The notes under the pieces: model-generated
What the model saw: the letters and a program-made list of their open reading frames with translations, nothing else
The model's database searches: none
Told to the model about the DNA's origin: nothing
Translations under genes and position numbers: made by a program
NCBI GenBank assembly: GCA_902555695.1
Contig: CACDTV010000001.1
Location: 19,559-83,558, forward strand
From: an uncultured Alphaproteobacteria bacterium
GTDB lineage: Bacteria > Pseudomonadota > Alphaproteobacteria > HIMB59
Length of the DNA stretch: 64,000 nt
Direction of reading: 5' to 3'
In this document: positions 18,900 through 46,067 of the stretch, one piece after another
Numbering within the stretch: position 1 is the stretch's first letter
Layout: each line of letters starts with the position of its first letter

Positions 18900-19538
18900 T
18901 TAAAATTTCAAGAATGACTGTATCTCTTTTGCTAGAGCCAACATTTCTAAACACCCTTTTCCAGTTCTTTGTTTTTCTACAACTGTTAACCCTAATCCCA
19001 TAGTTGATACAAATATTTGTCTATTACCCAAAATCGTCTTTGCTTTTTTAACATTCATTTTATTAACAAATTTATGTGCTTCTTGAATAAGTTTAGATTT
19101 AGCATTTGCTCTATTAATAAGAATTAATATCTCTCTTTTTTCTCTTTTCGCTAATTCAATTATGGACTCCGTGGCCCAAAAATCTACTTGAGAGGGAGAT
19201 ATCGGTATAATGACAAGGTCAGCTATTTCAATTGCTGGTCTTCCATCAGCGTCAATTTTAGGAGGAGTATCAATTATTACTAAATCAGATTTTTCTTTAA
19301 GGGATTTAGCCTCATACTGTGCGCCCCAGAGGCTTGCAGTTTTAAACTGAATCATATTTTTATTTTTAAGTTTTTCATTTCTGGTAAGAAACCACTTACC
19401 TAAACTACCTTGAGGGTCTGTGTCGAGTAATGTCGTCGATAAATTATTTTTTAAAGAATAAACAGCAGCTAAATTTGCAGCTATAGTGGTTTTTCCAGAG
19501 CCTCCTTTTTGTTGAGCGATGGTAATGACCTTAGACAC
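18900..19538 (-). CDS. ParA/MinD-superfamily ATPase (orphan)
   Basis: AQQKGGSGKTTIAANLA deviant Walker A; DLVIIDTPP. Confidence 0.9.
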   Translation of the reverse strand: MSKVITIAQQKGGSGKTTIAANLAAVYSLKNNLSTTLLDTDPQGSLGKWFLTRNEKLKNKNMIQFKTASLWGAQYEAKSLKEKSDLVIIDTPPKIDADGRPAIEIADLVIIPISPSQVDFWATESIIELAKREKREILILINRANAKSKLIQEAHKFVNKMNVKKAKTILGNRQIFVSTMGLGLTVVEKQRTGKGCLEMLALAKEIQSFLKF

Positions 19539-20904: not shown

Positions 20905-21606
20905 ATGTTAAGCGTAATAGATATTTCTAAAAATTTTGGCGATTTTACTGCCATTAATAAACTCTCTTTTGAGGTCAAAGTTGGTGATGTGATGGGATTC
21001 CTTGGACCTAATGGTGCTGGCAAAACAACTTCCATGAGGGTAATAACTGGTTATCTTAAATCTGACAGTGGAAACGTTATCATAAATAATAAGGACATTG
21101 AAATAGAGCCCATTTACACAAAGTCAATGATTGGCTACTTACCTGAAGGTGTTCCCCTTTATTTAGACTTTTCGCCATATCTTTACCTAGACTACGTTTG
21201 CCAGGTAAGAAATATAAAAAACTCAAAAGCAGCAATCAAAAAAGTAATTAATGATCTGCAACTAGAAGAAGTAAAAGATGTTCCCATTGAAACTTTATCA
21301 AAAGGTTTTAAAAGACGTGTTGGAATAGCACAGGCTCTTATTCATAATCCCAAATTACTGATCTTAGATGAGCCAACTGATGGATTGGATCCCCTTCAAA
21401 AATTTGAAGTAAGAAAATTAATTAAAAAATTATCTAAAACAAAAGCAATTATAATTTCTACACACATTCTTGATGAAGTCCCAGAGGTTTGTAATAAGTG
21501 TCTTATTATTAATGATGGACAAAAAGTCTTTGAGGGAACTCCAGCACAGCTTAAGAAAAAAATTGGTAAATCCCTAGATGAAAAATTTAGAAAGTTAGTA
21601 AGCTAA
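20905..21606 (+). CDS. ABC-2 type transporter ATP-binding protein (GldA-like)
   Basis: GPNGAGKTTSMRVITGYL; LSKGFKRRVGIAQALIHNPKLLILDEPTDGLDP. Confidence 0.92.
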   Translation: MLSVIDISKNFGDFTAINKLSFEVKVGDVMGFLGPNGAGKTTSMRVITGYLKSDSGNVIINNKDIEIEPIYTKSMIGYLPEGVPLYLDFSPYLYLDYVCQVRNIKNSKAAIKKVINDLQLEEVKDVPIETLSKGFKRRVGIAQALIHNPKLLILDEPTDGLDPLQKFEVRKLIKKLSKTKAIIISTHILDEVPEVCNKCLIINDGQKVFEGTPAQLKKKIGKSLDEKFRKLVS

Positions 21607-22325
21607 TGTTGGCGCTAATTAAAAGAGAACTTAAATTATATTTTATAACTCCTGTCGCCTATATTTTTACTGCAATATTTATTTTGACCTCTATGTCCTT
21701 GACATTTTATTTTGGGTCGTTTTTCTCCTCAGGAGTTGCAGACTTAACGGTTTTTTTTAGTTTTATTCCATGGGTTTTTATTTTCTTTGTCTCTGCAGTT
21801 ACTATGAAAAGTTGGTCCGAGGAAAAAAGACTTGGTACTATTGAATTATTAATGACTTTACCAATTCCTTTGTGGAAGATAGTGTTGAGTAAATTTTTTG
21901 CAACTTGGGCTTTTGTTGTATTCTCTGTTGTTTTGACGTTTCCTATTTGGATTACAGTAAATTATCTTGGAAACCCTGATAACCTTGTAATTATTGGCCA
22001 ATATCTTGGTGTTATTATCATGGCAGGTGCTTATGTTTCTCTTGGAATTTTCTTTTCTTCGTTAACTAACAATCAAATAATTGCCTTTATTTTATCTATT
22101 TTAGTCTCATTTCTTTTTACCATAAGTGGTTTTCCTCTTATGATTAATTTTATAACTGGGATTTTACCTATTGAAATAGTAGAACTCATTTCTAGTTTTA
22201 GCTTTTTGACTCACTTCTCAAGTATCCAAACGGGTTTCTTCTCAATTAAAGGATTGTTTTTCTTTTTATCCTTTATTGCTCTTTGGAATTATTTAACAAT
22301 TATAAAATTTTTTAATCGAGACTAA
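21606..22325 (+). CDS. ABC-2 type permease (GldF-like)
   Basis: KRELKLYFITPVAYIFTAIF; MKSWSEEKRLGTIELLMTLPI. Confidence 0.9.
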   Translation: MLALIKRELKLYFITPVAYIFTAIFILTSMSLTFYFGSFFSSGVADLTVFFSFIPWVFIFFVSAVTMKSWSEEKRLGTIELLMTLPIPLWKIVLSKFFATWAFVVFSVVLTFPIWITVNYLGNPDNLVIIGQYLGVIIMAGAYVSLGIFFSSLTNNQIIAFILSILVSFLFTISGFPLMINFITGILPIEIVELISSFSFLTHFSSIQTGFFSIKGLFFFLSFIALWNYLTIIKFFNRD

Positions 22326-24160
22326 TGAATAAATTTTTACAAAAAAACTATCTCATAGTATCTATACTAAGCACTGTTATTTTATTTTTGTCCTTTAATT
22401 TTATAATCCAAAAAATCAATTTTAATTTGGGAGTTGATTTTACCTCTAACAAAACTTTTACTCTTTCAAGTGGTACTAAGAGAGTTATAGACGAAATAGA
22501 AGAGCCAATAAAAATTAATTTTGTATATAGCAGAGACTTATCTAAAAATATTCCAATTATTCAAAATTACGCTAATCAAGTTCAAGGTCTATTAAACAGA
22601 TATTCAGATTTAGCCTTAGGTAAAATTGAATTAAACTTTATTGAACCAGAACCTTATTCAGATGATGAAGACTATGTAAATAGATATGGTGTGCAGGGCT
22701 TTCCTATAGATCAAGAAGGGTCCAAAGTATATTTTGGATTAATTGCTTCAAATACAACAGATGACATAGAAACTGTTCCATTTTTTGATCCCTCAAAAGC
22801 TGGCACATTAGAAAAACAATTAACTGACATTGTATACAAACTTAATAGATCAAAAAAACCAATGATTGGTTTTTTATCATGGGTGGACACTACACCACCA
22901 ATGATGCCAAATAATCAACTTGGGCAAGGAGAATACACAATACTTGAGGAGCTTAGTTATTTTTATGATTTTGAGTTTTTAGATACAGACGTAGAGAGTT
23001 TTGAAGGTATAGACTTATTGATAGTTTATCACCCCTCTGACATTAGTGACAAAACTGAATATGCAGTTGAACAATTCATCTTGAATGGTGGAAAATCAGT
23101 TATTTTTGTTGATCCATTTTTTGAGAAAAATGACCATTCAAATAAATCATCAAATTTAGAAAATGTCTTAAAAACCCTCAATATTAACTATAATAGCAAT
23201 GTTATTTTAGATGGTGCTCAAGCCACAAGACTGCAAACACAACAAAACATAACTGAAAATACATCTTTGCAAACTATGTTGAAATTGAATTGGCCTGAAG
23301 TCAGAGGGCAGTTCATTAATCAAGCTGAAGAAATTGGAGACGGTTTATCTTTAATTAGACTTGTGTCTCCAGGTGGTCTTTCCCCATTAAATGAAGAAAG
23401 TGAAATTTCTTACACTCCTATTATGTCCTCCAGTGAGGTAACAATGGATCTACCTATGAAAGAGGTACATGATCCAATTAAGCTCATTAATAATTTTCAG
23501 CCAACAGGAATTAGCTATGACTTTGGAGTAAAATTAAATGGTATCGCAAAAAGTAATTTTAACGATTTTGAATTTAAAAATGATAATCATTTAGAAACAT
23601 CCTCAAAAAATATAAATGTGGTAGTTTTCAGTGATGCTGATTTTATAAGAAATGCCTTTTGGGCAAGAATTCAAAAGTTTTTAGATACCAATGTAATAGA
23701 GGCAACATCTGATAATGGAAGTTTAGTTACAAATGTATTTGACTCAATGACAGGTTATGACGAATTTATTGATCTGAGAAACAAAGAGGCTCCATTTAGA
23801 CCGTTTGTTGTAGTTCAAAAACTTCAAGCAGAAGCTGAGCAGATGTATCTAGGACAGGAACAGCAATTACAAGCTCAACTTGATAATACATTAAATCAAA
23901 TTCAAAATTTATCAGGCGGTAGAGATGTAGAAAGTGTCAATTTATCTGACAAACAATTAATGGAATTAGCAAATTTTCAATTACAAGTAGAAAATACTCG
24001 TAAACAACTAAGAGAAGTTAGAAGAAATTTAAGTAAAGACATAGATCGATTAGCAAATCAAATAAACATATTAAATACTTTTTTAATCCCTGTTCTTTTA
24101 ATTCTACTAATGTTTTTTATTCCAAGACAACTCGGTATCAGAAAAAGAAAAAGCAGATAA
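22325..24160 (+). CDS. GldG-like ABC transporter auxiliary protein
   Basis: N- and C-terminal TM helices; FTLSSGTKRVIDEIEEPIKINFVYSRDLS; FVDPFFE. Confidence 0.88.
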   Translation: MNKFLQKNYLIVSILSTVILFLSFNFIIQKINFNLGVDFTSNKTFTLSSGTKRVIDEIEEPIKINFVYSRDLSKNIPIIQNYANQVQGLLNRYSDLALGKIELNFIEPEPYSDDEDYVNRYGVQGFPIDQEGSKVYFGLIASNTTDDIETVPFFDPSKAGTLEKQLTDIVYKLNRSKKPMIGFLSWVDTTPPMMPNNQLGQGEYTILEELSYFYDFEFLDTDVESFEGIDLLIVYHPSDISDKTEYAVEQFILNGGKSVIFVDPFFEKNDHSNKSSNLENVLKTLNINYNSNVILDGAQATRLQTQQNITENTSLQTMLKLNWPEVRGQFINQAEEIGDGLSLIRLVSPGGLSPLNEESEISYTPIMSSSEVTMDLPMKEVHDPIKLINNFQPTGISYDFGVKLNGIAKSNFNDFEFKNDNHLETSSKNINVVVFSDADFIRNAFWARIQKFLDTNVIEATSDNGSLVTNVFDSMTGYDEFIDLRNKEAPFRPFVVVQKLQAEAEQMYLGQEQQLQAQLDNTLNQIQNLSGGRDVESVNLSDKQLMELANFQLQVENTRKQLREVRRNLSKDIDRLANQINILNTFLIPVLLILLMFFIPRQLGIRKRKSR

Positions 24161-25165
24161 ATGTATATTAAAAATTTAAAAATATTGGTTTTACTATCTT
24201 TTGGATTTTTAATTATTGCCCTTGGTATGTATTTTGATGGCAAAAATATCTCTAACAAGTCATCATCTGAAGTATTATTTCCTAGCTTTGATGATGTTTT
24301 ACCGAAAATAGCATACATTGAATTTTCTAATCAAAATGGAAAATCTGTTATTGAAATCATTGATAATCAATGGCTTATTTCAAGCTCAAATAATTTTCCC
24401 GCAAATACTGAGCTTTTAAGTAGGTTTTTTATTCAACTTCGTGAAGCAAATATTTTAGATGCTAAAACTAATCGTGAAGATCTTTTATACAAATTGGGTC
24501 TAGATGATGAAAATAAAATGCAATTAATATTAAAATCTGAAGATGGTGAAGTGTTGTACTCACTAGATATTGGTATTTATAATTACAATATCCCAGGATC
24601 TTACATAAAGGCTACTGAGTCTAATCAATCTTATTTGGTTTCAACAAACTTAACCGCCGATGTATCTGATTTCTATTGGGTACCAACGGATTTAATAAAT
24701 ATTGGTAAATCTCAAATTCAATCAATTCAAATTTATAATCAAAATATGATTAACTTAAGTATTAAAGAAGGAGAGCTAAAACATACAAATTTGACCTCTC
24801 AATTTAAAGAAATTGATAATGATAAAATTATTGATGCTCAAAATATATTAACTGATCTTCAACATAATGGCTATATACTTAAGACAGAATTACCTAACTC
24901 TCCAGATTTAAAAGCTAGGTTTACACTAAATAATGGAACTATAATTTTTATAAATCTTTACGATATTGAGGGTAAAGGTGTTCACGCTACTTTTGATTGG
25001 AATTATGTCGATGATAAAGTTCAAATATCAAAGTTTATAGATCCATTGCTAGATGGAAATCAAATACAAGTTAGTTCGGTTGCTTTTTTAAATAATTTTG
25101 CTTTTAGCGTTCCTCAAATATTTTTTGATACATTGAATATAAAATTAAGAGAAAAAACCGAATAA
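24161..25165 (+). CDS. DUF4340-like protein
   Basis: N-terminal TM, YIEFSNQNGKSVIEIIDNQWLI; position after the GldG-like gene. Confidence 0.75.
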   Translation: MYIKNLKILVLLSFGFLIIALGMYFDGKNISNKSSSEVLFPSFDDVLPKIAYIEFSNQNGKSVIEIIDNQWLISSSNNFPANTELLSRFFIQLREANILDAKTNREDLLYKLGLDDENKMQLILKSEDGEVLYSLDIGIYNYNIPGSYIKATESNQSYLVSTNLTADVSDFYWVPTDLINIGKSQIQSIQIYNQNMINLSIKEGELKHTNLTSQFKEIDNDKIIDAQNILTDLQHNGYILKTELPNSPDLKARFTLNNGTIIFINLYDIEGKGVHATFDWNYVDDKVQISKFIDPLLDGNQIQVSSVAFLNNFAFSVPQIFFDTLNIKLREKTE

Positions 25166-31671: not shown

Positions 31672-32655
31672 TTATTCTCCTTTTAGTTTTTTTATAACCT
31701 CATTTACAATTAGTTCCACTGAGGGAATTGTATTATCTTCGAGTATGTCGGCACTTGGTAAAGGTACATGTGGTGTAGTTACTCTAGTGACAGGGCCTTT
31801 TAAATTTTTAAAACAATGTTCTGAGATTAAAGATGATATCTCCGCTCCCCATCCACAAAGTCTTGGATTTTCTTCTACTGTCAAGACATGACCAGTCTCG
31901 ATTACAGATTTTTTTATTGTTTGTAAATCTAATGGCACTAGAGATCTCAGATCAATTACCTTTGCATTAATATCGTGTTTGTCTTTCAAAATTAATGCAG
32001 CCTCTTTTGCTCTTTGTGCCATTAAAGCTAAACCAATAATAGTAATATCTTTTCCCTCGTGAAGCGTATTAGCCTCCCCAATAGGAATTGATATATCAGT
32101 TTGTTCAATTTCTTCTTTAAATGCATAAAGTGATTTATGCTCATAAAATATAACTGGATCAGGGTCCTTTACAGCACTATCCATCAAACCTAACACGTCA
32201 CTAGGGCAACTTGGTGCGACTACTTTTAAACCTGGTATCATCATAGACCAATTTTCTAAACTTTGAGAATGTTGTGCACCAAATTTTGACCCTCCACCAT
32301 TTGCAGTCCTAATGACCAGTGGAATGTTGATTTGTCCATCTGACATATATCTAGTTTTAGCAATTTGATTTGCCACAATATCCCAACAAACAGCTAAAAA
32401 ATCTGAAAACATTATTTCTGCTATTGGTCTTAAGCCTGTCATTGCTGCGCCCATAGCTGCACCTAAAATCGCCTGTTCTGAAATTGGTGCATCCATGACT
32501 CTCTCTTTTCCAAACTCCTCTAAAAGACCAACCGTCGCTTTAAATACTCCACCCGCAGCACCTACGTCTTCACCAATAAAAAAAACTTTTTGATCTTTTC
32601 TCATGGATTGAGCTATAGCAAGTGAAACACTTGATCTGTATGTTAATTGTGCCAC
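31672..32655 (-). CDS. 2-oxoacid/acetoin dehydrogenase E1 beta subunit
   Basis: SLAIAQSMRKDQKVFFIGEDVGAAGGVFKAT; MDAPISEQAILGAAMGAAMTGLRPIAEIMFSDF. Confidence 0.92.
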   Translation of the reverse strand: MAQLTYRSSVSLAIAQSMRKDQKVFFIGEDVGAAGGVFKATVGLLEEFGKERVMDAPISEQAILGAAMGAAMTGLRPIAEIMFSDFLAVCWDIVANQIAKTRYMSDGQINIPLVIRTANGGGSKFGAQHSQSLENWSMMIPGLKVVAPSCPSDVLGLMDSAVKDPDPVIFYEHKSLYAFKEEIEQTDISIPIGEANTLHEGKDITIIGLALMAQRAKEAALILKDKHDINAKVIDLRSLVPLDLQTIKKSVIETGHVLTVEENPRLCGWGAEISSLISEHCFKNLKGPVTRVTTPHVPLPSADILEDNTIPSVELIVNEVIKKLKGE

Positions 32656-33647
32656 TCAGAACCTCCATTAGCCCATACATCAGTATAGATTTCTTTAATT
32701 TCTGGAATTGGAGAAGCCATGGAAATTTCAGTTGCTTTTTCAACTTGATCTTTAACTTTCTCCTCAATTTCAGAAATGATTTTTTCATTGATATTAAAAT
32801 CTAATAACTTTGCTCTATAATTTTTTATTGGGTCTTTATTTTCCATCCAATCTTTTACTTCCTCATCAGGTCTGTACTTACCTGGGTCAGCTCTTGAATG
32901 CCCACTGTGTCGATAAGTCTTGGCTTCAATTAAACTTGGGCCTTTACCCTCTCTCGCTTTTGAAATAGCTTTTTCTGCTGTTCTAAGCATTTCATCAGCA
33001 TCATTTCCGTCCACAATAATTTTATCTAAATCGTATGCACCTGCTCTATCAGCAGCTGGGTGCTCAACAGCAGTAACTTCATGAATTGGTGTATATTCCA
33101 TATATAAATTATTTTCACAAACAAACACTATGGGTAAATTCCATATTTTTGCCATGTTCAATGCCTCATGGAATGCTCCGATATTCGTAGTACCGTCTCC
33201 AAAAAAGCAAACGCTTACCTCATTTGTTTTATTATATTTTGATGCTAAAGCAGTTCCATTGGCAATAGTTAAATGTGCACCTATAATAGCATATGAACCC
33301 ATAACTCCTTTTTCTACATCTGTAAGATGCATGGATCCTCCTTTACCTTTCATTAAGCCACACTGTCTACCCATTAATTCTCCTAAAACTCCTTCGATTG
33401 AGGATCCTCTTGCGAGTGTATGTGCGTGTCCACGGTATGTGCAAAATGTATAATCGCCTTGTTTCAAGGCGACTCCAAAGGCACCTGCAATAGCTTCCTG
33501 ACCCAGAGCTAAATGGCTAGTACCTTTGATAAGATTTTGAAGAAAAAGATCATATGCTTTTTTTTCGACTAACCTTAATTTCAGCATCATTTCCCATAAT
33601 TGAAGTCTTTTCTCTTCTCCTATATCGTCATTTAATTTATCTACCAT
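32643..33647 (-). CDS. 2-oxoacid/acetoin dehydrogenase E1 alpha subunit
   Basis: TYRGHAHTLARG; KGKGGSMHL; FFGDGTTNIGAFHEALNMAKIWNLPIVFVCENN (ThDP motif). Confidence 0.93.
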   Translation of the reverse strand: MVDKLNDDIGEEKRLQLWEMMLKLRLVEKKAYDLFLQNLIKGTSHLALGQEAIAGAFGVALKQGDYTFCTYRGHAHTLARGSSIEGVLGELMGRQCGLMKGKGGSMHLTDVEKGVMGSYAIIGAHLTIANGTALASKYNKTNEVSVCFFGDGTTNIGAFHEALNMAKIWNLPIVFVCENNLYMEYTPIHEVTAVEHPAADRAGAYDLDKIIVDGNDADEMLRTAEKAISKAREGKGPSLIEAKTYRHSGHSRADPGKYRPDEEVKDWMENKDPIKNYRAKLLDFNINEKIISEIEEKVKDQVEKATEISMASPIPEIKEIYTDVWANGGSEWHN

Positions 33648-34936
33648 TAATATTTATTAGCAATAGGTAGATCTTCAGCAGGGAACAAGGAAATTACTTG
33701 GCATCCTTTATCAGTAACAATCAATTCTTCTTCAATTCGCGCAGCAGAATAACCATCTTTTGCAGGACAATAGGTTTCAAGAGCAAAAACCATTCCTTCT
33801 TTAATTTCATCAGGTGAGTCCATTGAAACCAATCTACTAATTATTGGTCTTTCGTGAATTGCCAAACCTAAACCATGTCCAAACTGTAATGCGAATGCTG
33901 ACATTTCATTTGCAAAACCAAATTCCTCAGCCTTCGGCCATACTGATGCAATTTTATCTGTAGATACTCCAGGTTTTACAAGTTCAATGGCTTTGTCTAG
34001 CCACTCTCGACACTGCTTGTAGGCATCATTTTGAGAGTCTGATGCTCGTCCAATATTGAAGGTTCTATAATAACAGGTCCTGTAGCCCATATAAGATTGA
34101 AGTATGTCAAAGAAAGCTTGATCACCAGGTCTAAAAATTCTATCTGTAAAATTATGTGGATGCGGATTACATCTTTCACCTGAAATGGCATTTATTGCCT
34201 CGACATCGTCTGAACCAAGTTCGTATAAAAGCTTATTTGCATTAGCAACTATTTGAGCTTCACTAACGCCTGGCTTCATAGTCTCATAAATTTGATGATA
34301 AGTTGCATCAACCATCGATGCAGCCTGGTTTAATAACATTAGCTCATCTCTTGATTTTATTTCCCTGGCTTCAAGAAGAATTTGCTGTCCGTCAATTATC
34401 TCTAAACCCTCTGCTTGAAGAGCAAACATCATTGCTGGTTCAACAAGATCCACACCTACAGGTTCATTTGCCAGTCCCTTTTCATTTAACATTGATTTTA
34501 TTTCTTTTGCGGCATTTTTCATTAATCCTGCATCAGGATGCACCGTACCCCTCAGGCCTACCATTCCTGCCTTCCAATTTTCTTTTGGAAGCCAAGGCGA
34601 AAATAATTGGTGATGTTTAGCCGCTGAACCGAAGTCCCACAGCACGGGATCATGGTCTTGAGCTAATAGAGAATATCTACATATTTTGTCTCTTGACCAC
34701 TCTCCAATAACTGTGCTTGTGATATATCGGATGTTGTTGTTATCAAAACAAAGGAGTGAACCGGCTTTTGAATTTTTTAGAGCCTCTCTGGCTCTTCCTA
34801 GTCGATATTTGTGAAGTCTAGGAAAATTAATTCTCTCTTCATAATCTACATTTGTCCTTCCATGAGAAGGTACTCTTCTATGCCAATCGTAATTTGGATT
34901 AATATCTTCGGGTTTTATGATTGAAGGTTCGCTCAT
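33647..34936 (-). CDS. M24 (Xaa-Pro aminopeptidase/creatinase-like) family protein
   Basis: AFFDILQSYMGYRTCYYRTF, FGHGLGLAIHERPI, FALETYCP, ARIEEELIVTDKG. Confidence 0.87.
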   Translation of the reverse strand: MSEPSIIKPEDINPNYDWHRRVPSHGRTNVDYEERINFPRLHKYRLGRAREALKNSKAGSLLCFDNNNIRYITSTVIGEWSRDKICRYSLLAQDHDPVLWDFGSAAKHHQLFSPWLPKENWKAGMVGLRGTVHPDAGLMKNAAKEIKSMLNEKGLANEPVGVDLVEPAMMFALQAEGLEIIDGQQILLEAREIKSRDELMLLNQAASMVDATYHQIYETMKPGVSEAQIVANANKLLYELGSDDVEAINAISGERCNPHPHNFTDRIFRPGDQAFFDILQSYMGYRTCYYRTFNIGRASDSQNDAYKQCREWLDKAIELVKPGVSTDKIASVWPKAEEFGFANEMSAFALQFGHGLGLAIHERPIISRLVSMDSPDEIKEGMVFALETYCPAKDGYSAARIEEELIVTDKGCQVISLFPAEDLPIANKY

Positions 34937-35740
34937 TTATTGAATTACCATCCCTCCATCAATCATAAGTATTTGTCCTGTCATATAATCAGACTCACTA
35001 GACGCTAAAAATGATGCCGTGCCCACTACGTCTTCAGGATAGGAATACCTCTTCATCAAAATCATATTCTCTGCAATTGAGTCCATTGACTCTCCGGGTT
35101 TGTCAAATTTTCCAATTGCAACTAAATCTTTATCTAATTGCTCCCATAGCTCTGTTCTAACTACGCCAGGGCCATATCCATTAACGGTAATGCCATGCTC
35201 AACTAAACTTTTTGCACCACCTTTTATTAGAGCAGCTATAGCATGTTTGCTCATTCCATAAACCACAACATCATCAAAAGTTTCTCTGGATAAAATAGAA
35301 GCTACATGAATAATTTTGTAGGGTTCTTTTTGTTTACCTTGTTTAATCATTTGTCGGGCTTGTTCTTGCATACCTAAAAGAGCACCTCGAACATTTATAT
35401 CCATAATAAAATCATAATTTTCCTCAGTAATATCCATGAAGAAGAGTGGTTTGTTTACTCCAGCATTATTTATAGAAACATTTAGACTACCAAAATTTTC
35501 AACTGTTGCTTTTACAGCAGCTACGTGATCTTCACGATTTCGCACGTCTACTTTACATGAAATAGCCTCACCTCCAGCTGACCTAATTCTCTCTTCAACC
35601 TCTTTACAACCTTCAAGGTTGACATCTGTTAGACAAATTTTGGCTCCTTGGGCAGCAAAGTGCTCTCCTACCGCAGCGCCCATGCCCTGAGCAGCGCCTG
35701 TAATAAGGACATTTTTCCCTTTTAGTCTCTCTTTATCCAT
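34937..35740 (-). CDS. Short-chain dehydrogenase/reductase
   Basis: LITGAAQGMGAAVGEHFAAQG; YGMSKHAIAAL; TGQILMIDGGM. Confidence 0.93.
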   Translation of the reverse strand: MDKERLKGKNVLITGAAQGMGAAVGEHFAAQGAKICLTDVNLEGCKEVEERIRSAGGEAISCKVDVRNREDHVAAVKATVENFGSLNVSINNAGVNKPLFFMDITEENYDFIMDINVRGALLGMQEQARQMIKQGKQKEPYKIIHVASILSRETFDDVVVYGMSKHAIAALIKGGAKSLVEHGITVNGYGPGVVRTELWEQLDKDLVAIGKFDKPGESMDSIAENMILMKRYSYPEDVVGTASFLASSESDYMTGQILMIDGGMVIQ

Positions 35741-35793: not shown

Positions 35794-35810
35794 ATATTCA
35801 AAATGAATAT
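35794..35810. promoter_or_regulatory. Palindromic operator candidate ATATTCA-AAA-TGAATAT
   Basis: Perfect 7-3-7 inverted repeat in the gap upstream of the SDR gene; recurs at 40590 and (core) 44109. Confidence 0.6.
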
Positions 35811-36844
35811 TATTTACCTAAAGCCGATCTCTTTTTTTCCAGCAAAGATGTTTTTCGTTCATCAATTGTGGCAAGCAGACTTTTCCTAGCTTGCCGCGAG
35901 TCAAATACCCTAGACATAGTTTGAAAAACTATAACGATAACTAAAAGCACTGATGTAAATAATTGAACGAAATGAACCTGAAGTGCATAAAATACGAGAC
36001 CAGTATTCAAAAAATTAACTGTTAAAGCTCCGATAGCTGCTCCTAAAACACCACCCTTTCCTCCTAGTATGCTCACACCTCCGACAAAAGCTGCAACAGT
36101 TCCTGCTAAAAGAAGGTATTGTAGTCCTAGACCTTGAGCCGTTCCTGATTTCAAACCAATTACAGTTCCAGCAAAACCGGCACAAAAACCTGACAGCGCA
36201 AAGGCTATAATCATTGGGCGTCTTAAAGGTATACCTGCAGTGAGTGCTTCTTTTCTTGCTCCACCAATCGCATATATTTCCCTTCCATATTTAGTGTAAC
36301 GCATAAAAATTCCTACGCAAATGAATATGAAGATGACCGTTAGACTAGCAGGAGAAAAATACATTAAAACTTTAGTAGTAATAAAATCAGGAACTCTAAA
36401 ATCTGTTAACATAACTGTTTTTTCTTCAGCAATTAGCAAAGCTACTCCTCTAAGCAGCATTAGAGTACCAACTGTGATCACAATCGCTCTTATTCTTATG
36501 AATGCTATAACAAAACCTTGTGTTACGCCGATTAAAGTTGAAACTGAAAGTCCTATAAGCATCGCTAATGGTGCACCCAAGGGGTCTGTTAATTTTACAA
36601 CTATCACAGCGCATAAGGCTGCGTTAGACCCAATTGATAAATCAATTTCTCCAGCAATTATACAAATTGTTAATGCTAAACCTACAAGACCCAAGACTGC
36701 AAACCTTTCAAGAATAGCGAAACTAATATTGTGGCTAAAGAAAACTTCAATATTAATTGCAAAGAATACGTAAACACAAAATGATAATAAGATTGCAAAA
36801 GAGAGATCTACATCTTTTGTAATCTTTTTTATAAAATTTTCCAT
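35810..36844 (-). CDS. Sugar ABC transporter permease (RbsC-like)
   Basis: GEIDLSIGSNAALCAV; AFVGGVSILGGKGG. Confidence 0.92.
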   Translation of the reverse strand: MENFIKKITKDVDLSFAILLSFCVYVFFAINIEVFFSHNISFAILERFAVLGLVGLALTICIIAGEIDLSIGSNAALCAVIVVKLTDPLGAPLAMLIGLSVSTLIGVTQGFVIAFIRIRAIVITVGTLMLLRGVALLIAEEKTVMLTDFRVPDFITTKVLMYFSPASLTVIFIFICVGIFMRYTKYGREIYAIGGARKEALTAGIPLRRPMIIAFALSGFCAGFAGTVIGLKSGTAQGLGLQYLLLAGTVAAFVGGVSILGGKGGVLGAAIGALTVNFLNTGLVFYALQVHFVQLFTSVLLVIVIVFQTMSRVFDSRQARKSLLATIDERKTSLLEKKRSALGK

Positions 36845-37884
36845 TATTCCTGAGCCCTACTTCCTTTAGCAAATAAACCAAAAACAATGATACTAAACAC
36901 GATCATTAAGCCCACACCAACTATTCTAGGTCCACTATTAAATCCCTGTAAAACCATCATATTATCAACCATAGCAATAAAAATTGCTCCCAAACTAGTC
37001 CTTAAAGTAGATCCATAACCACCCATTATTGAATTTCCACCAACCATGACAGTTGCTATAACGAGTATTGTCATATCACCTGATGATCCAAATTCTGCAG
37101 AAAAATAATTAGATTGAGCACTATCCATTTGAGCAACAAAAGCTACTGCAACAAATGCACAACAAACAGAACAGATTGTGAAAACAATTATCGCCATAGA
37201 AAAATTTTCATGGCCAGTGGCTTTTCCAGCAGCTTTGTTTGCTCCAACTAAATAAACTTTCCTTCCAAAATTTGTATGTCTTAAAACTATCTCAGCTGCA
37301 ATGGCAATTAAAATAAAAGACCATGTGATACTTGGAAGACCCAAAAAAGAACCAGTTCCTAACCATTCTGCATCATGAGGTCTTGTAAAGTTTATTACAA
37401 GGTTATCACTCCACCATGCACCAATACCATATAGGATGCCTGCTCCACCTAATGTTACAACAATTGGGTTGCCTCCCATTCCAACAAAATATCCTTGTAT
37501 TACTCCACTTACGACACCTACTGCTAAAGCTGCTAATAGTGAAACTAAAAAGTTTCCTGCAAGATCCGGTGATCCAAAACCAGTAGCCATACCCATAGCA
37601 AACGTAACACCACAAATTGATGCTGTTTCTTTTAATGACAATAAAAAAAAATTTCCTGATAAAGTTACAAATGTAAGTCCTATAGCCATAATGCCATATA
37701 GTGCTGCATCTCTGATAATTGCTTTAAAATTGGTTATAGTTAAATAATTTTCTGTGAAAAAAATTCCATATATAAACATCACAGCAAAAAGTGACAATAA
37801 AATAGCAAGAAGTGTGCGATCCTTATAGAATTGCAAAAACTTTGCAGAAAAAGGTAATTGATTATTTTCGATGATAGCACTCAT
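36844..37884 (-). CDS. Sugar ABC transporter permease (RbsC-like)
   Basis: SGNFFLLSLKETASICG; VMVGGNSIMGGYGS; overlaps neighbours at start/stop. Confidence 0.9.
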   Translation of the reverse strand: MSAIIENNQLPFSAKFLQFYKDRTLLAILLSLFAVMFIYGIFFTENYLTITNFKAIIRDAALYGIMAIGLTFVTLSGNFFLLSLKETASICGVTFAMGMATGFGSPDLAGNFLVSLLAALAVGVVSGVIQGYFVGMGGNPIVVTLGGAGILYGIGAWWSDNLVINFTRPHDAEWLGTGSFLGLPSITWSFILIAIAAEIVLRHTNFGRKVYLVGANKAAGKATGHENFSMAIIVFTICSVCCAFVAVAFVAQMDSAQSNYFSAEFGSSGDMTILVIATVMVGGNSIMGGYGSTLRTSLGAIFIAMVDNMMVLQGFNSGPRIVGVGLMIVFSIIVFGLFAKGSRAQE

Positions 37885-39389
37885 AGGTTTGTCTCGTTAA
37901 ATGGATCAGTAATCTCTTTAAGAATAACAGGTGTTTTAATTTTTTCTAATCGGTGTTCATCAATCATCATTCCTCTATAAAATGTAATCACCCTGTCAGG
38001 AAGATATGTGATTTCTTGGATATCAGTAGAGGCAAAAATAATTGTAATTCCTCTTGCTGCTAATTCTCTCATTCTTTGATATATCTCTGATTTAGCACCA
38101 ACATCAACACCTCTTGTCGGCTCATTCACAAGCAATACATCGGGCTTGATTGAAAGCCATTTTCCTAATGCTACTTTTTGTTGATTTCCGCCACTTAAAA
38201 GACCTGACTCATCGTGCATTCTTTTGACATCAATTAAGAACTCTTTTGCTAAATTTCTGGAATAATTATCCTCAGAACTGCCAAAGTTAAAACCATATTT
38301 TGAAATAGCACCAAGTGCTGGGGAGGTTAAATTCTCAAATATTGGACGTCCAAGAAAAAGACCATCTTTTTTTCTATCGGAGGAGCAATATGCAATTTTT
38401 TTCTTTATAGCATGACTTGGTGATTTAGGTAAAAAGGTTTCACCGTTCAAAGTGAGTGATCCTGATCTAGATTGAAGTGCACCTGCTATGGAGGCTAATA
38501 CCTCACCTGCTCCACTACCAAGTTGCCCAGAGAGCCCAAGTATCTCTCCCTTGAAGGCTGAAAAACTAACCGGCTCTAAAACACCATCAGGCCAAAGTTC
38601 TTTTACTTCTAATTTTGGATCATCACTTATATGGTCAGCTTTTGATGGGAACATATTTGCCAATTCTCTTCCAAGCATAATTTCAACTAGTTTATTTACA
38701 TCAATATCTTTAGTTTCTTGAATACCTTGACTTACTCCGTCTCTTAATATTGTTATTCTTTTTGTAATCTTAAAAATTTCGTCCAGTCTATGACTTACAT
38801 AAATTATTGATTTACCATTTGCAGCAAGACGCTCAACCATTTCTAAAATTCTTCGACTCTCTGCTTCACCTAACGCAGCTGTAGGCTCATCTAAAATTAA
38901 AATTTTTGCTTCTCTAGAAATTAGTCTAGCTACTTCTACCAAATGTTGTTCACCAACAGATAATAAATTTATTCTAGTAGTTGGATCTACTTCAGTTAAT
39001 CCAACTTCATCAAGATATGGGCGTGCCATCTTTGCCAATGTATTAAGAGTGGCAAATTTTTTTACTTTAGCTCCAGTAAGAAAAATATTTTCTGCAACTG
39101 ACATATTAGGAATCAAGCTTAATTCTTGTTGAGCAATAGCAATGCCAGACTCCTCTGCTTGTGAAGGCGTTTCAAATTTTACTTCTTTACCATTGATTTG
39201 ATAGCTGCCTTTAAAACCGGGGTCAAATCCACTTATAATTTTAACAAGAGTTGATTTCCCAGCTCCATTTTCTCCAACTAGTCCCATAATTTCACCTTCG
39301 TTTATCTCAAAATTTGCTTCTTTTAGAGCCTGTATAGCCCCAAAAGTCCTAGAAACTTTTGAAATTTTAAGAATTGGATTTGTGGACAT
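37881..39389 (-). CDS. Sugar ABC transporter ATP-binding protein (RbsA-like)
   Basis: GENGAGKSTLVKIISG; LDEPTAALGEAES; LLSGGNQQKVALGKWL. Confidence 0.93.
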   Translation of the reverse strand: MSTNPILKISKVSRTFGAIQALKEANFEINEGEIMGLVGENGAGKSTLVKIISGFDPGFKGSYQINGKEVKFETPSQAEESGIAIAQQELSLIPNMSVAENIFLTGAKVKKFATLNTLAKMARPYLDEVGLTEVDPTTRINLLSVGEQHLVEVARLISREAKILILDEPTAALGEAESRRILEMVERLAANGKSIIYVSHRLDEIFKITKRITILRDGVSQGIQETKDIDVNKLVEIMLGRELANMFPSKADHISDDPKLEVKELWPDGVLEPVSFSAFKGEILGLSGQLGSGAGEVLASIAGALQSRSGSLTLNGETFLPKSPSHAIKKKIAYCSSDRKKDGLFLGRPIFENLTSPALGAISKYGFNFGSSEDNYSRNLAKEFLIDVKRMHDESGLLSGGNQQKVALGKWLSIKPDVLLVNEPTRGVDVGAKSEIYQRMRELAARGITIIFASTDIQEITYLPDRVITFYRGMMIDEHRLEKIKTPVILKEITDPFNETNL

Positions 39390-39479: not shown

Positions 39480-40523
39480 TTAGTCCCAAGCACCTGAGCA
39501 AAGCTCGTTGATGCCATATAACTTACCATCAAAACCTCTAAGTGCTGTGAAGTCCATAGTGGCACCAGTCACTGAAGGGTTAGGTGTAAAGTTAATGTAG
39601 TTTGCTAGCTCACCGTTCTCCATGTACTCTTTAACAAGAGCTATAGCTAATTGACCTTCATGAAGAGGTGACTGTAGAGTAGTACCAAATTGCTTTCCAT
39701 CAGTAATCATCTGCTTATCACCGTTACACACAGTACCAACTGTAATGACAGCATCACTATCTACACTGCCACTTTTGCCAGTACCTGCATACCAGTCAAC
39801 ATTATAACCAGCTTCTTCTAATGCCTTAATACCACCAGTTAAGATCGCATCGTCCATACCATATACAAAATGAATTCCCTGATCTTTAACTTTAGCTATT
39901 AGCTTAGCTGCTCCTTTATAACCGTTAGCCTGTCCAAATCCCTCACCGATGTCACCGATAAGATTTAAGTCAGTTCCAGCGATAGCTTGTTTGAAAGCAT
40001 TTATTGATAAGCCATATCCACCGTAAGAGTGAGGATATGATAATGCAATTACATTATATCCATCTCCACCTGCAGCTTGTTTCATCTTCATAGCTTTAAC
40101 CATCATCTCACCTGCGTTATAAGCGCGGAGACTATCATCTGGTCCAGCATATCCAAAGATGAATGCTTTATCTTGCTCATTAGGTAACTGATTGATTTTT
40201 AAAACTGGTACTCCAGTTTTAGCAAGCTTTCTTAACGAACCTAAACCTGCAACAGCATCAGGTGGCCACCAAATAAATACATCAGGTAGTGCTCCACTTG
40301 ACAAGTATTGTTCTACTTGTTGGTTTTGCTCTGCTTGGTTATAGTTGTTTTCAAAAACAGTAATATCATAGCCATATTGCTCTGCTGTAGCTTTAATACC
40401 TTTAACGAACGCACCAACATAAGCCTCAGATGACGCAGCATTAAAAGACACGATTTCAACTGCCTTAGCTGAACCGAAAGAAAAGCACATTAGAACAGCT
40501 AATACTTTTATTAGTTTGTTCAT
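39480..40523 (-). CDS. Periplasmic sugar ABC substrate-binding protein
   Basis: Signal peptide MNKLIKVLAVLMCFSFGSAKA; purine-rich SD just upstream of 40523 (ORF track start 40562 less likely). Confidence 0.9.
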   Translation of the reverse strand: MNKLIKVLAVLMCFSFGSAKAVEIVSFNAASSEAYVGAFVKGIKATAEQYGYDITVFENNYNQAEQNQQVEQYLSSGALPDVFIWWPPDAVAGLGSLRKLAKTGVPVLKINQLPNEQDKAFIFGYAGPDDSLRAYNAGEMMVKAMKMKQAAGGDGYNVIALSYPHSYGGYGLSINAFKQAIAGTDLNLIGDIGEGFGQANGYKGAAKLIAKVKDQGIHFVYGMDDAILTGGIKALEEAGYNVDWYAGTGKSGSVDSDAVITVGTVCNGDKQMITDGKQFGTTLQSPLHEGQLAIALVKEYMENGELANYINFTPNPSVTGATMDFTALRGFDGKLYGINELCSGAWD

Positions 40524-40571
40524 ATTGATCCTCCTAAATATCCTTATATAGAAATTATCCATGATTTATTA

Positions 40572-40589: not shown

Positions 40590-40606
40590 ATATTCAAATT
40601 GAATAT
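40590..40606. promoter_or_regulatory. Palindromic operator candidate ATATTCA-AAT-TGAATAT
   Basis: Perfect 7-3-7 inverted repeat between the divergent binding-protein gene and regulator gene. Confidence 0.65.
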
Positions 40607-40636: not shown

Positions 40637-42322
40637 ATGAATAGAAACGAGATTACTACTCTTTTAAAATTCGTTGATAAAACAAGACTTTTATTTAACA
40701 GATCTATTTCAATTAAAACAATTGACGCTGATTGGAATATTTTTTCTTACGTTATTATTAACCATCTAGACAATAAAATTACCACTACTACGAGTATCAT
40801 CCAGGCATCAGGTTTGCCATTTGCAACTGGTTTGAGAAGAGTAAAAAAACTTATTCAAGAAAAAAAATTAATACAAAGATCAAAAACAAAATCAGGTAAA
40901 TCGTTTTCTATACATCCAAGTAATAATCTCATTAAAGAATTCACGGATTATTTACTTTCAATCAAAAAAGAGGTGGCCCTGAACTTAGGTTACAGTGATT
41001 TTAATGATAATTATTTTTTTGGAACTTCTCTGTCTGCGGGAAATATTATACCTGCACCAAATGTTATAATTAATCAAAATAAAAAATACAAAAAAATTAA
41101 CTTTCTTGCCAATGATAATCCCACATTTAAAGTGATAGATAAGAATATTGATTTTTTTGAATATATACTTGATTGTGAAATTGAACTTATTATTGAAGGT
41201 GATTTGAAAAAACTACTTAATGTAATAATTAAAAATTCCTCATCAAATAAAAAGTCTAAATTTGACATAGTTGCTTTTAATATTCCATGGATTGGACAGT
41301 TAACTAAATTAAATTGCCTTCTTCCTTTGAATAATTTTGTTAAAGATGTTGGAATAAATTTGAATGACTTTCACTATTCAGGAGTAAGATCAAGTTCTTT
41401 TAATAAAAAACTTTATGGGATTCCGATCGAAGCAATTCCTGATCTATTATTTTATAGAACAGATATTTTTCAAAAATATGCTTTGAGTCCACCAAAAACA
41501 TTTCAGGATTTACTCCATGCCTGTGAGGTATTAAAAGGTGACAAACAGATAGAAAGTCCTATTTCTTGGCCAGCTAAAAAAGGTCAACCACTTGCTACTA
41601 GTTTTATTTTAGCAATGGCAAATTATGGAAAACCATATGTAAACCTTAGGTACATTGGGAAAAATATTTATGATTTAGATGTGGAAAAAATACTATTAAA
41701 AGCAAATTTTTTATCTGATGCATCTTTTGAAGCAGCTAAAATGTTGAAAAAATTGACTTTATACTCGCCAAATGAATTATCTGCTCATTCCAATGATGAA
41801 TGTGTTGAATATTATAGTCAGGGTAAATCAGCTATGGCAATGAATTGGAGTAGTAGAGCCCATTTGTTCGAACTAAATGAGGCTTCACCTGCATATAAAA
41901 AAACTGGTTATTTACCAAGACCTGCTGGAAATTCCTCTTTTCAAGTATCTCCAATAGGTGGATTTTCATTAGGCATACCCTCAAATATCTCTCCTGAAAA
42001 AATACCTTTTGTTATGAAAAATATTCGTAATTTTGTCTCTCCTGAATTTATAAAATATTATATTGAGCATGGTAGTTTATCATCTCCCGTTTTTAGTGTC
42101 GTAAATGATCCTGAAGTGAGAGCTTTAAGTCCAATATTTAATGAAATTGATAAAATGGAAAAGGAGGAAAAAATTATAGAATGGGCAAGATATCCTTTGC
42201 CAACCTATTCAAATATTATTGAAGATGTTGGTCATAAAATTTATGAGTATATTTTTTTGAATAAGGATTTGGAAACCACACTAAAGAGTTGTCAACAAAG
42301 TGCCCAAAAGTATTTAAATTAA
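40637..42322 (+). CDS. Predicted cytoplasmic transcriptional regulator: N-terminal winged-HTH fused to solute-binding protein family 1-like domain
   Basis: wHTH-like TTTSIIQASGLPFATGLRRVKKLIQEKKLIQRSKTKSGKSFSIHP; C-terminal DIVAFNIPWIGQLTKLNCLLPLNNFV...KLYGIPIEAIPDLLFYRTDIFQKYALSPPKTFQDLLHACEVL...YYSQGKSAMAMNWSSRA; no signal peptide. Confidence 0.8.
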   Translation: MNRNEITTLLKFVDKTRLLFNRSISIKTIDADWNIFSYVIINHLDNKITTTTSIIQASGLPFATGLRRVKKLIQEKKLIQRSKTKSGKSFSIHPSNNLIKEFTDYLLSIKKEVALNLGYSDFNDNYFFGTSLSAGNIIPAPNVIINQNKKYKKINFLANDNPTFKVIDKNIDFFEYILDCEIELIIEGDLKKLLNVIIKNSSSNKKSKFDIVAFNIPWIGQLTKLNCLLPLNNFVKDVGINLNDFHYSGVRSSSFNKKLYGIPIEAIPDLLFYRTDIFQKYALSPPKTFQDLLHACEVLKGDKQIESPISWPAKKGQPLATSFILAMANYGKPYVNLRYIGKNIYDLDVEKILLKANFLSDASFEAAKMLKKLTLYSPNELSAHSNDECVEYYSQGKSAMAMNWSSRAHLFELNEASPAYKKTGYLPRPAGNSSFQVSPIGGFSLGIPSNISPEKIPFVMKNIRNFVSPEFIKYYIEHGSLSSPVFSVVNDPEVRALSPIFNEIDKMEKEEKIIEWARYPLPTYSNIIEDVGHKIYEYIFLNKDLETTLKSCQQSAQKYLN

Positions 42323-42323
42323 A

Positions 42324-43145
42324 CTATTTTGTTTCCATTTTTTCTGCAGGCTGAGGAGGTGCAAAAGGATATCCTCCCCACACCGACTGGTCAAAGTTTA
42401 CAACAGAACCTGTCATCATACCTGAGTCATCAGATGCTAAAAATGTAACTGCTTTAGCTACCTCTTTTGGATCAAGCAACCTTCCAAATGGTTGAGCTTT
42501 ACCAGCATCTTCTAACCAATTTTCTGAGGCACCATGATATTTTGTTTGTATCTCATGTTCTCCATCTGAAGCCATCCAACCAATATTTAACTGATTAACT
42601 CTAATTTTATTTTTTAACAAAGCGAATGCTGTATTCCTTGTTAATGTTGCAAGAGCCCCTTTTGATACGCAATAAGTTGATATAAATGGTTGGCCAGTCA
42701 TAGCTGCCACAGATCCAATATTAATAATTGAACCCTCTATGTTTTGTTCAATCATAATTTTCACTGTATCTTGTATAAGAAAATAAGGGCCTTTTAAATT
42801 GGTGCCAATCATTTTATCGAACAGTTCTTCGCTCGTATTAACAATATCTCCCCTATCAGTAATACCGGCAGCGTTTACAAGAACATCCAATCTCCCAAAT
42901 TCTTGTTTGGCAACTGAAACTGCATTTCTACACTCTTGGACCTCTCCAAGGTCTGTTTTTACAAAAATTACTTTACATCCAGTTTCATCTTGAATTTTTT
43001 TTGCTACCTCATTTCCTTTATCCTCTTTTCTACCAATTGTGACAATACCTTCAGCTCCGCTATCGGCAAAATTTTTTGCTATTGCTGCTCCTAAACCTTG
43101 CGTTCCTCCAGTCACTAGTGCAAACTTTCCCTTAATACTATTCAT
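42324..43145 (-). CDS. Short-chain dehydrogenase/reductase
   Basis: LVTGGTQGLGAAIAKNFADSG; YCVSKGALATLTRNTA. Confidence 0.92.
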   Translation of the reverse strand: MNSIKGKFALVTGGTQGLGAAIAKNFADSGAEGIVTIGRKEDKGNEVAKKIQDETGCKVIFVKTDLGEVQECRNAVSVAKQEFGRLDVLVNAAGITDRGDIVNTSEELFDKMIGTNLKGPYFLIQDTVKIMIEQNIEGSIINIGSVAAMTGQPFISTYCVSKGALATLTRNTAFALLKNKIRVNQLNIGWMASDGEHEIQTKYHGASENWLEDAGKAQPFGRLLDPKEVAKAVTFLASDDSGMMTGSVVNFDQSVWGGYPFAPPQPAEKMETK

Positions 43146-44049
43146 CTCTATAATCCTCTATTTCATATCCATACATACTTAAGCATTCTACAAGTTCTTT
43201 ATTTCCAATTTTAGCATATTCAAATGGGTTTGCTTTGGCGGGATCTTGCTCTGCCTCAACAATGAACCATCCTTCGTAATTATTATTTGATAATGTCTCA
43301 ACTACTTCCTTAAAATTAATATTTCCATCTCCAGGCACTGTGAAGGCTCCCTCTAATACAAAATCTAAAAAACTTTTTTTTGATCGATCTAAATCATTTA
43401 CAACCTTTGAGCGAATGTCTTTAGCATGAAAGTGATTTATTCTTTTTGCATATTTATTTATTACCCTCAAAGAGTTGCCTCCTGCAAAGGTCATATGGCC
43501 TGTATCAAATAAGATTTTTACTGCCTCACCTGTGTGGTTCATTAATTTATCAAGCTCATCCTCAGTCTCAATCGCTGTACCCATGTGATGATGAAATGAA
43601 ATTGGCACACCAAAATCTGCACAAAATTCTGCAAATAATGTTAGTTTCCTTCCATACTCTTTAAAATCCTCACTATGTATTTTTCTTTTTGTGTTTAAAG
43701 GAGCATGTCTAATATTTTGGATAGTTCCAGATGTTTCTCCATATGCTAAAACTGCTGCGCCTAGATCTCTGAAAAGAGTGAGTTGTTGAAGGACTTTATC
43801 TTTTTCATTTTCTAGGTCATTATCTAGCACAGTTCCTGAATACCACCCTGATGCCAAGTATAGTTGGTGATTTTTTAAAATTGGACCAAGTTTTTCAGGA
43901 GTTTTTGGAAATTTTCCACCAGTTTCTACACCAGTAAATCCAGCAAGTTTTGACTCACTAAGGCAGGTATCTAAAGAAGTCTCTCCTCCAAGTTCAGGTA
44001 AATCATCATTGGACCATGCTATAGGTGCTATTCCCAATTTTGCTTTCAT
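43138..44049 (-). CDS. iolE: Inosose dehydratase-like TIM-barrel protein
   Basis: LGIAPIAWSNDDLPELGGETSLDTCLSESKLAGFTGVETGGKFP; FHHHMGTAIET; LFDTGHMTFAGG. Confidence 0.87.
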   Translation of the reverse strand: MKAKLGIAPIAWSNDDLPELGGETSLDTCLSESKLAGFTGVETGGKFPKTPEKLGPILKNHQLYLASGWYSGTVLDNDLENEKDKVLQQLTLFRDLGAAVLAYGETSGTIQNIRHAPLNTKRKIHSEDFKEYGRKLTLFAEFCADFGVPISFHHHMGTAIETEDELDKLMNHTGEAVKILFDTGHMTFAGGNSLRVINKYAKRINHFHAKDIRSKVVNDLDRSKKSFLDFVLEGAFTVPGDGNINFKEVVETLSNNNYEGWFIVEAEQDPAKANPFEYAKIGNKELVECLSMYGYEIEDYRDE

Positions 44050-44108
44050 AAACTCCTCCTATGGAAAGATTATAGATAAATAAACCTTTTAAAGAATACT
44101 TAAATTTT

Positions 44109-44121
44109 ATTCAAAATGAAT
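44109..44121. promoter_or_regulatory. Palindromic operator candidate ATTCA-AAA-TGAAT
   Basis: Same core as 35794 and 40590; lies between divergent iolE-like and iolG-like genes. Confidence 0.55.
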
Positions 44122-44165
44122 TTTTTTTTATTTCTAAAATTTAAAGAATACTATAATTCTGTGAT

Positions 44166-45170
44166 ATGAAAAAAGTTAGTATTGCAGTTATTGGGTGCGG
44201 GCGAATTGGCCAAATGCATGCTAAGAATATTCAACTTCATGAACAGACAAATTTAGTATGCATTTATGACCCAAATGAAGAATTTGCAAAAAAAGTATCA
44301 AATGACTTAAACGTACTTGCTGTGGAAAATGTTGATGATATTTTTAACAATAATGATATTGATGCTGTTCTTATATCTTCCCCTACAAATACACATATTG
44401 ATTTCATAGAGAGATCTGTTGCATCAAAAAAACCTGTTTTGTGTGAGAAACCTATTGACCTCGATATAAAAAAAGTTGATGAGTTTTCAAAAAGACTTGA
44501 AGGTAATAAAGTTCCAATTCAATTAGGCTTTAATAGAAGATTTGATCCTGGTCATCAAGCTGCAAAAAAATCTTTTATTAATGGTGAAATTGGTGAGCTT
44601 CATCAGTGTCTGATTACATCTAGAGATCCAGGTCTGCCAAGTTGGGATTATTTAAAAGTGTCTGGTGGGCAATTTAGAGATATGACAATTCATGATTTTG
44701 ATTTAGCTCGTTTTATGCTTGGTGAAGAGCCAGTTAAGGTATTTGCAATTTCTAATGCTTTAATAGATCCAAAAATTAAATCTGAATTAAATGATAGTGA
44801 CACCTTGATGATTATAATGGAAACAGCCTCGGGAAAACAATGTCATATAAACAACTCTAGATCAGCAACTTATGGATATGATCAAAGAGTTGAGTTGTTT
44901 GGTAGCAAAGGGATGGTTATATCTGAAAATAGAAAGCCACATGAATTGAAAAAATACAATTCAGAGTTTGTTGACAAGAGTGAACCCTATTTAAATTTTT
45001 TTATTGAGAGATACCAGGAGTCTTATATGAATTCTATTAGCTCATTTGTCGAAACAATTTTGGAAAAAAAGCCTGTATCTGTTGGCTTTGAGGACGGAAG
45101 AAGAGCTCTTCTCTTAGCCGAAACTGCTTATAAATCTGTCAAAAGTGGGAGGATGGAGAATATTGATTAA
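44166..45170 (+). CDS. iolG: Inositol 2-dehydrogenase-like (Gfo/Idh/MocA)
   Basis: IAVIGCGRIGQMHAKNI; CEKPIDLD; FNRRFDPGHQAAKK; MTIHDFDLARFMLGEEP. Confidence 0.85.
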   Translation: MKKVSIAVIGCGRIGQMHAKNIQLHEQTNLVCIYDPNEEFAKKVSNDLNVLAVENVDDIFNNNDIDAVLISSPTNTHIDFIERSVASKKPVLCEKPIDLDIKKVDEFSKRLEGNKVPIQLGFNRRFDPGHQAAKKSFINGEIGELHQCLITSRDPGLPSWDYLKVSGGQFRDMTIHDFDLARFMLGEEPVKVFAISNALIDPKIKSELNDSDTLMIIMETASGKQCHINNSRSATYGYDQRVELFGSKGMVISENRKPHELKKYNSEFVDKSEPYLNFFIERYQESYMNSISSFVETILEKKPVSVGFEDGRRALLLAETAYKSVKSGRMENID

Positions 45171-45245
45171 ATTTATGCATTTATTCATGAATAATAAATA
45201 ATTGTTATAATTATTTTTTTAAATAATTTTGATATTTAACACTAA

Positions 45246-46067
45246 ATGATTGAAAACAAAGTAAAAACTAAATGGCAAAAAAAAGAAGTGGTTGTTAATA
45301 GCTTTTTATCAATACCTAATACTTTTACTGCTGAAATTATGTCAGAGCAAGGTTATGACTCCCTTACCATTGACTATCAACATGGGATGATTGGCTTTAG
45401 TGATTTATTTAAAATGTTGCAAAGTATTAGAAATAGTGGTGTCACTCCAATCTGTAGAGTTTCAGGATTAGATCACGCAGTAATATCGAAAGTTATGGAT
45501 GCAGGTGCTTTGGGTATCATTTGCCCAATGATTAATAATAAAGAGCAAGCACAAAAACTTGTTCAAGATTGTAAATATCCACCTGTAGGTATTAGAAGTT
45601 TTGGTCCGACGAGAGCTAACTTTTCCGTTAGTTCAAATTATTTTTATGAGTCAAATGAGGGAACGTTTTGTCTTGCCATGATAGAAACTCAAGAAGCATT
45701 TGATAATCTTGATGATATAGCATCCACTCCTGGTCTTGATGGCCTTTATATCGGGACAGCAGATTTAACAATAGGGCTGAACCAAGGAAAGTTAACACCT
45801 GGGTTTGATCGAACAGAACCTGAGATGATTGAGTCTAAAAAGAAAATTTTAGATATTGCTCATAAACATGGAAAAGTTGCATGTCTTCATTGTGGGACTC
45901 CAGAGTATGCTGCCAAGGCATCCGAATGGGGTTTTGATCTTGTGACAATTACAAATGATGTAAGGTTGTTATCTGGAGCAGCAGCCACTCATGTGAGAAA
46001 ATTCAAAGAGCTTACTAATCAAAACTACGATGAGTCTGATAAAGATAATAATCCTAGCTCTTACTAG
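45246..46067 (+). CDS. HpcH/HpaI-family 2-oxo acid aldolase
   Basis: YDSLTIDYQHGMIGFSDL; RVSGLDHAVISKVMDAGALGIICPMI; GLDGLYIGTADL. Confidence 0.9.
   Translation: MIENKVKTKWQKKEVVVNSFLSIPNTFTAEIMSEQGYDSLTIDYQHGMIGFSDLFKMLQSIRNSGVTPICRVSGLDHAVISKVMDAGALGIICPMINNKEQAQKLVQDCKYPPVGIRSFGPTRANFSVSSNYFYESNEGTFCLAMIETQEAFDNLDDIASTPGLDGLYIGTADLTIGLNQGKLTPGFDRTEPEMIESKKKILDIAHKHGKVACLHCGTPEYAAKASEWGFDLVTITNDVRLLSGAAATHVRKFKELTNQNYDESDKDNNPSSY

Follow-up and report, generated by a model that had tools for sequence, protein, structure and literature searches.

A putative cytoplasmic one-component regulator combining a winged helix-turn-helix with a MalE-like solute-binding domain in marine HIMB59 alphaproteobacteria

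The open reading frame at 40637..42322 (+) of the window, the 64,000-nucleotide stretch of DNA analysed here, belongs to the marine HIMB59/AEGEAN-169 alphaproteobacteria and very probably encodes a cytoplasmic one-component regulator governing the uptake and catabolism of a sugar or cyclitol that it senses in the cytoplasm, as judged from its sequence and structural models. Its product of 561 amino acids consists of a winged helix-turn-helix (wHTH, residues ~3-116), a conserved linker (~117-150), and a family-1 solute-binding protein (SBP) domain (~153-561). The wHTH is MarR-like in its modelled fold, the SBP domain is complete, an export signal is lacking, and a palindrome occurs at three promoter regions of the locus. 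Because a DNA-binding domain and the lack of an export signal coincide with a conserved DNA site preceding the neighbouring sugar and inositol genes, the protein is very likely a gene switch. On balance, it seems to represent a family of regulators that are misannotated as extracellular solute-binding proteins and are not described in the literature searched. In this family, a MalE-type receptor would have turned into a cytoplasmic sugar or cyclitol sensor carried by a modular MarR-like wHTH, with a similar operator kept across Alphaproteobacteria and a Vibrio.

An earlier note on this DNA had proposed that the protein has no signal peptide, and the three sequence motifs it quoted are present in the product. 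The reading frame counts 564 codons for 561 residues; since it reaches only ~3 codons further upstream, a signal peptide is impossible, and a mis-called start is ruled out by the same upstream limit together with the low hydropathy of the N-terminus. No hydrophobic N-terminal stretch was detected in 15-residue Kyte-Doolittle windows, the best of which scores 0.77 versus 2.48 in a genuine exported SBP of the window. Neither a signal peptide nor a lipobox, as expected of SBP_bac_1 transport receptors, was found, and the export check that the earlier note had suggested thus lends no support to a periplasmic location. The strong SBP_bac_1 match and the RefSeq label of the relatives, "extracellular solute-binding protein", would suit an ordinary extracellular receptor with a mis-called start or an unusual N-terminus. 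However, this explanation is extremely improbable given the short upstream frame, the non-hydrophobic N-terminus, the conservation of the wHTH, and a palindrome that is both conserved and specific to the locus. Moreover, none of the CUT1 permeases on which a MalE-type SBP would depend lies alongside in the window, whereas the adjacent transporter is of the CUT2 class, which counts in favour of a regulator. An assembly artefact as the source of the fusion is likewise ruled out because over 20 HIMB59 genomes, as well as distant taxa, contain the same fusion.

The N-terminal domain (40637..40984, +, residues 1-116) had been described as wHTH-like, an assignment now borne out by structure prediction. 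An AlphaFold2 model built from 19 aligned N-terminal domains displays a clear winged HTH at residues 3-116 (pLDDT 88.7, pTM 0.79), with helices at 3-24, 31-44, 51-58, 62-74 and 96-116 and strands at 78-82 and 90-94. The wing motif GKSFSIHP is near-invariant in the family. Foldseek matches of the model are almost all MarR-type winged HTH structures (probability 0.97-1.00), with a best E-value of 3.8e-3 and none below 1e-3. As a single sequence, the regulator matches no HTH family above the Pfam or NCBIfam cut-off; similarity to the MarR profile is sub-threshold and weak, and individual members among the 12 scanned match MarR_2, HTH_24, HTH_IclR and TrmB weakly.

The same wHTH is also found outside the SBP fusions. 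In HIMB59 relatives, it occurs alone, without an SBP domain, in proteins of 144-146 aa (L031:3813-4247, L032:7400-7840, and L062) that adjoin an ABC operon with a TAT-signal PotD-like protein. In same-class genomes of one family, response regulators (L090, L091, L093, L094) carry it as the output domain, C-terminal to a CheY-like receiver domain. As it is seen alone and behind a receiver domain, besides the SBP fusions, the wHTH is by sequence a movable DNA-binding output module.

A linker (40985..41089, +, residues ~117-151) connects the wHTH to the sensor domain. Its motif, (Y/F)FGxS...IIPxPxV, is kept across the fusions, and model confidence in this part is low (below 50). The full-length model is of modest confidence as well (pTM 0.51). 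The SBP_bac_1/MalE-like domain (41093..42319, +, residues ~153-561) agrees with the proposal of a full-length family-1 solute-binding domain: Pfam SBP_bac_1 matches residues 201-450 with an E-value of 4.3e-19 (70.1 bits versus a cut-off of 26), SBP_bac_8 matches the C-terminal part at 5.5e-17, and this part also matches structurally characterised sugar-binding proteins, for example 1eu8 (3.5e-16). The best Foldseek matches of the domain are 5iai, 6dtq and 1eu8, and all 12 of the 12 family members scanned match SBP_bac_1. The domain might have lost its ligand and serve only dimerisation or protein contacts, an idea to which the existence of stand-alone wHTH relatives and the predicted nature of ligand binding lend some weight. 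It is nevertheless unlikely, considering that ~400 residues of the domain are retained with the YRxD, P(I/V)GG and PW motifs conserved throughout the family, and that sugar and cyclitol genes adjoin the family members throughout. A ligand-binding sensor therefore remains the preferred reading of this domain.

The regulator gene is divergent from a sugar ABC operon, as had been noted, and the operon proved to be ribose-type. Its first gene (39480..40523, -) encodes a ribose-type periplasmic binding protein (Peripla_BP_4), the start of which is probably at 40523 (MNKLIKVLAV...) rather than at 40562; an ABC ATPase and two ribose-type permeases of the CUT2 class follow (35810..39389, -). Beyond the operon lie genes for a short-chain dehydrogenase (SDR), an M24-peptidase-like hydrolase, and E1 alpha and beta dehydrogenase subunits (31672..35740, -), followed by a succinate-semialdehyde-type dehydrogenase. 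On the other side of the regulator, at 42324..46067, an SDR gene and iolE (-) face iolG and an HpaI-like aldolase gene (+), with iolB, iolC and a class II aldolase gene further along. The regulator had been called the only recognisable transcription factor in the 64 kb; this holds for the ~40 window proteins scanned, a subset of the ORFs, among which no other was found. Elsewhere in the window, a bacteriorhodopsin-like protein (proteorhodopsin) is encoded at 4111-4812, and a short MipZ/ParA-like ATPase fragment of 212 aa at 18903-19538, next to two ORFs that have no Pfam match. At 20905-25165, a GldA-similar ABC ATPase precedes ABC_transp_aux (GldG-like) and DUF4340 proteins; they make up a gliding-type ABC exporter set, here in a genome that is small and streamlined.

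The ABC transporter, SDR, M24 and E1 genes accompany the regulator even in Vibrio and the Roseobacters. On plasmids of Phaeobacter and Marinovum, the regulator again faces away from a ribose-type ABC operon and stands at the head of the SDR-M24-E1alpha-E1beta genes; in Vibrio, the M24-E1alpha-E1beta genes lie less than 10 kb from it. The SDR, the M24 hydrolase and the E1 alpha/beta subunits form a conserved catabolic module, with M24 proteins ~65% identical between HIMB59, Vibrio and the Roseobacters. Rhizobial members adjoin Gfo/Idh/MocA dehydrogenases, sugar-phosphate isomerases and ABC transporters.

Orthologues within the HIMB59 genus are 62-100% identical to the regulator. Full-length two-domain relatives with ~27-34% identity occur in Natronohydrobacter, Actibacterium, Palleronia, Phaeobacter, Marinovum, Tritonibacter, Skermanella, Mesorhizobium, Rhizobium, Agrobacterium, Sinorhizobium, Shinella and Vibrio penaeicida, so that the family spans Rhodobacterales, Rhizobiales, Azospirillaceae and a Vibrio. 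Its distribution is sparse (matches of fusion length in 5 of 383 sampled class genomes outside the genus), and one sampled genome has three paralogues. One HIMB59 lineage has acquired a second wHTH-SBP fusion (L052:2410-4053 and L124:14318-15961), which is 41% identical, is accompanied by an iolG-like gene of its own, and separates the ABC permease from the SDR gene. The open-access literature searched yielded nothing relevant on regulators combining an HTH with a family-1 SBP. Architectures of a GntR-type HTH plus SBP_bac_1 are probably present in databases for Firmicutes. The breadth of the family, the co-conserved catabolic module, and the second and third operator sites described below go beyond the earlier note.

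The palindrome that the earlier note had pointed out in the divergent promoter of the regulator, predicted operator site 1 (ATATTCAAATTGAATAT, 40590..40606), is exact (ATATTCAANTTGAATAT), deeply conserved and locus-specific, and has further copies. Every HIMB59 orthologue, even at 62% identity, retains it, with one mismatch in orthologue L051, while the surrounding intergenic DNA diverges. Predicted site 2 (ATATTCAAAATGAATAT, 35794..35810) lies between the last permease gene and the SDR-M24-E1alpha-E1beta genes, in the 69-bp gap preceding the latter. A weaker, probable site 3 (TATTCAAAATGAATT, 44108..44122) is located in the divergent iolE/iolG intergenic region; of the 20 scanned HIMB59 loci that cover this region, 17 have it, and L051, L053 and L054 lack it. 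The 52 genomes of the genus that were scanned for a 17-bp pattern, two positions of which were left free, were also scanned for the reversed pattern as a control. The near-complete genome G029 has exactly two occurrences of the 17-bp pattern, at sites 1 and 2. Across the 52 genomes, all matches but one, a lone copy unrelated to the locus in G794, are in the regulator locus or spaced as in it, and the reversed pattern had no match. Three apparent carriers of the motif without the regulator (G797, G009 and G034) turned out to be contig-end truncations of the same locus.

Generalised symmetrically, the palindrome reads TATYCRANNYGRATA, which about half of the distant members have in promoter regions. 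It occurs without mismatch near the regulators of Vibrio penaeicida (TATCCAAAATGGATA), Marinovum (TATCCAAATTGGATA), Phaeobacter (TATTCGATTTGGATA), Sinorhizobium and Rhizobium (TATCCGAAACGGATA), and two further genomes. These members share just ~30% protein identity, and shuffled sequences yield essentially no TATYCRANNYGRATA. Within ~20 kb of the distant members L060, L107, L108, L113 and L114, the motif is absent. Upstream of two stand-alone wHTH genes, the half-site TATCCAAATT occurs; near the stand-alone genes, no copy of the operator motif was found at up to one mismatch. The palindrome could also serve a different regulator whose gene lies elsewhere, with the proposed architecture still correct: palindromes are common in promoters, binding of the motif by the regulator is predicted, some family members lack the motif, and contig ends in incomplete genomes blur the comparison of motif and regulator presence. 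This is very unlikely, however, as the motif recurs beside family members in distant taxa, is confined to the regulator locus within the genus, and is brought along by the second fusion of L052 and L124, which has a copy in its own divergent promoter. The palindrome is thus best regarded as the operator of the regulator itself.

From these features, the following mode of action may be proposed. A dimer of the regulator would bind TATYCRANNYGRATA, and its SBP domain would close on a cytoplasmic sugar or cyclitol, either the imported substrate or an early intermediate, thereby altering DNA binding. The regulator would thus control the ribose-type ABC transporter, the SDR-M24-E1 operon and probably iolE/iolG, and may repress its own gene via site 1. 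This site overlaps a promoter-like element of the regulator gene, TTGAAT-18-TATAAT, which is no commoner there than in shuffles; negative autoregulation is favoured because the overlap includes the -35-like part. For the target operons, repression relieved by the ligand is slightly preferred to activation.

Since public annotation files the family as transport receptors, regulon surveys overlook a set of carbon-uptake regulators. If the proposal is true, each member offers a sensor with its operator, ready for use, for a pathway of sugar or cyclitol metabolism, and one abundant, streamlined group of the ocean surface has a regulator for inositol-type catabolism. MalE-like domains would then have been recruited as transcriptional sensors, as were the type-I domains of LacI.

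The sensor domain is homologous to family-1 sugar-binding proteins such as TMBP (1eu8), MalE3 (6dtq), SmoF (7nbz) and Arad_9887 (5iai). Those are exported transport receptors, whereas the regulator lacks a signal peptide and possesses a DNA-binding domain. With the MarR family (MepR, TcaR, SlyA), it shares the winged-HTH fold and a palindromic site, but its wHTH is fused to a large separate sensor and its similarity to MarR models is far below the cut-off; it is MarR-like in fold and not a MarR member by profile. LacI-family proteins combine an HTH with a sensor derived from periplasmic binding proteins and control sugar ABC operons. The regulator resembles them in pairing an HTH with a binding-protein-derived sensor. 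However, LacI sensors have the type-I fold of ribose-binding protein, while the regulator joins a MalE-like type-II domain to a wHTH, and neither the LacI HTH nor a type-I sensor was matched in it by Pfam or NCBIfam. The earlier note had cited SgrR, with its family-5 SBP, as a precedent, which is a fair comparison: DsvR (Vca0578) of Vibrio cholerae is described as HTH plus SBP_bac_5, and E. coli SgrR as negatively autoregulated (PMC13060122). Like SgrR and DsvR, the regulator unites an N-terminal HTH and a C-terminal solute-binding domain in one cytoplasmic protein without an export signal. It differs in that their domain is SBP_bac_5 (peptide/nickel type) and its own SBP_bac_1, and in that it sits in sugar/cyclitol catabolic loci. 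Because no SBP_bac_5 match was found at E-values up to 5 in any of the 12 family members scanned, it is not classified as SgrR. By analogy, it may work like SgrR, with an unrelated family of binding domains.
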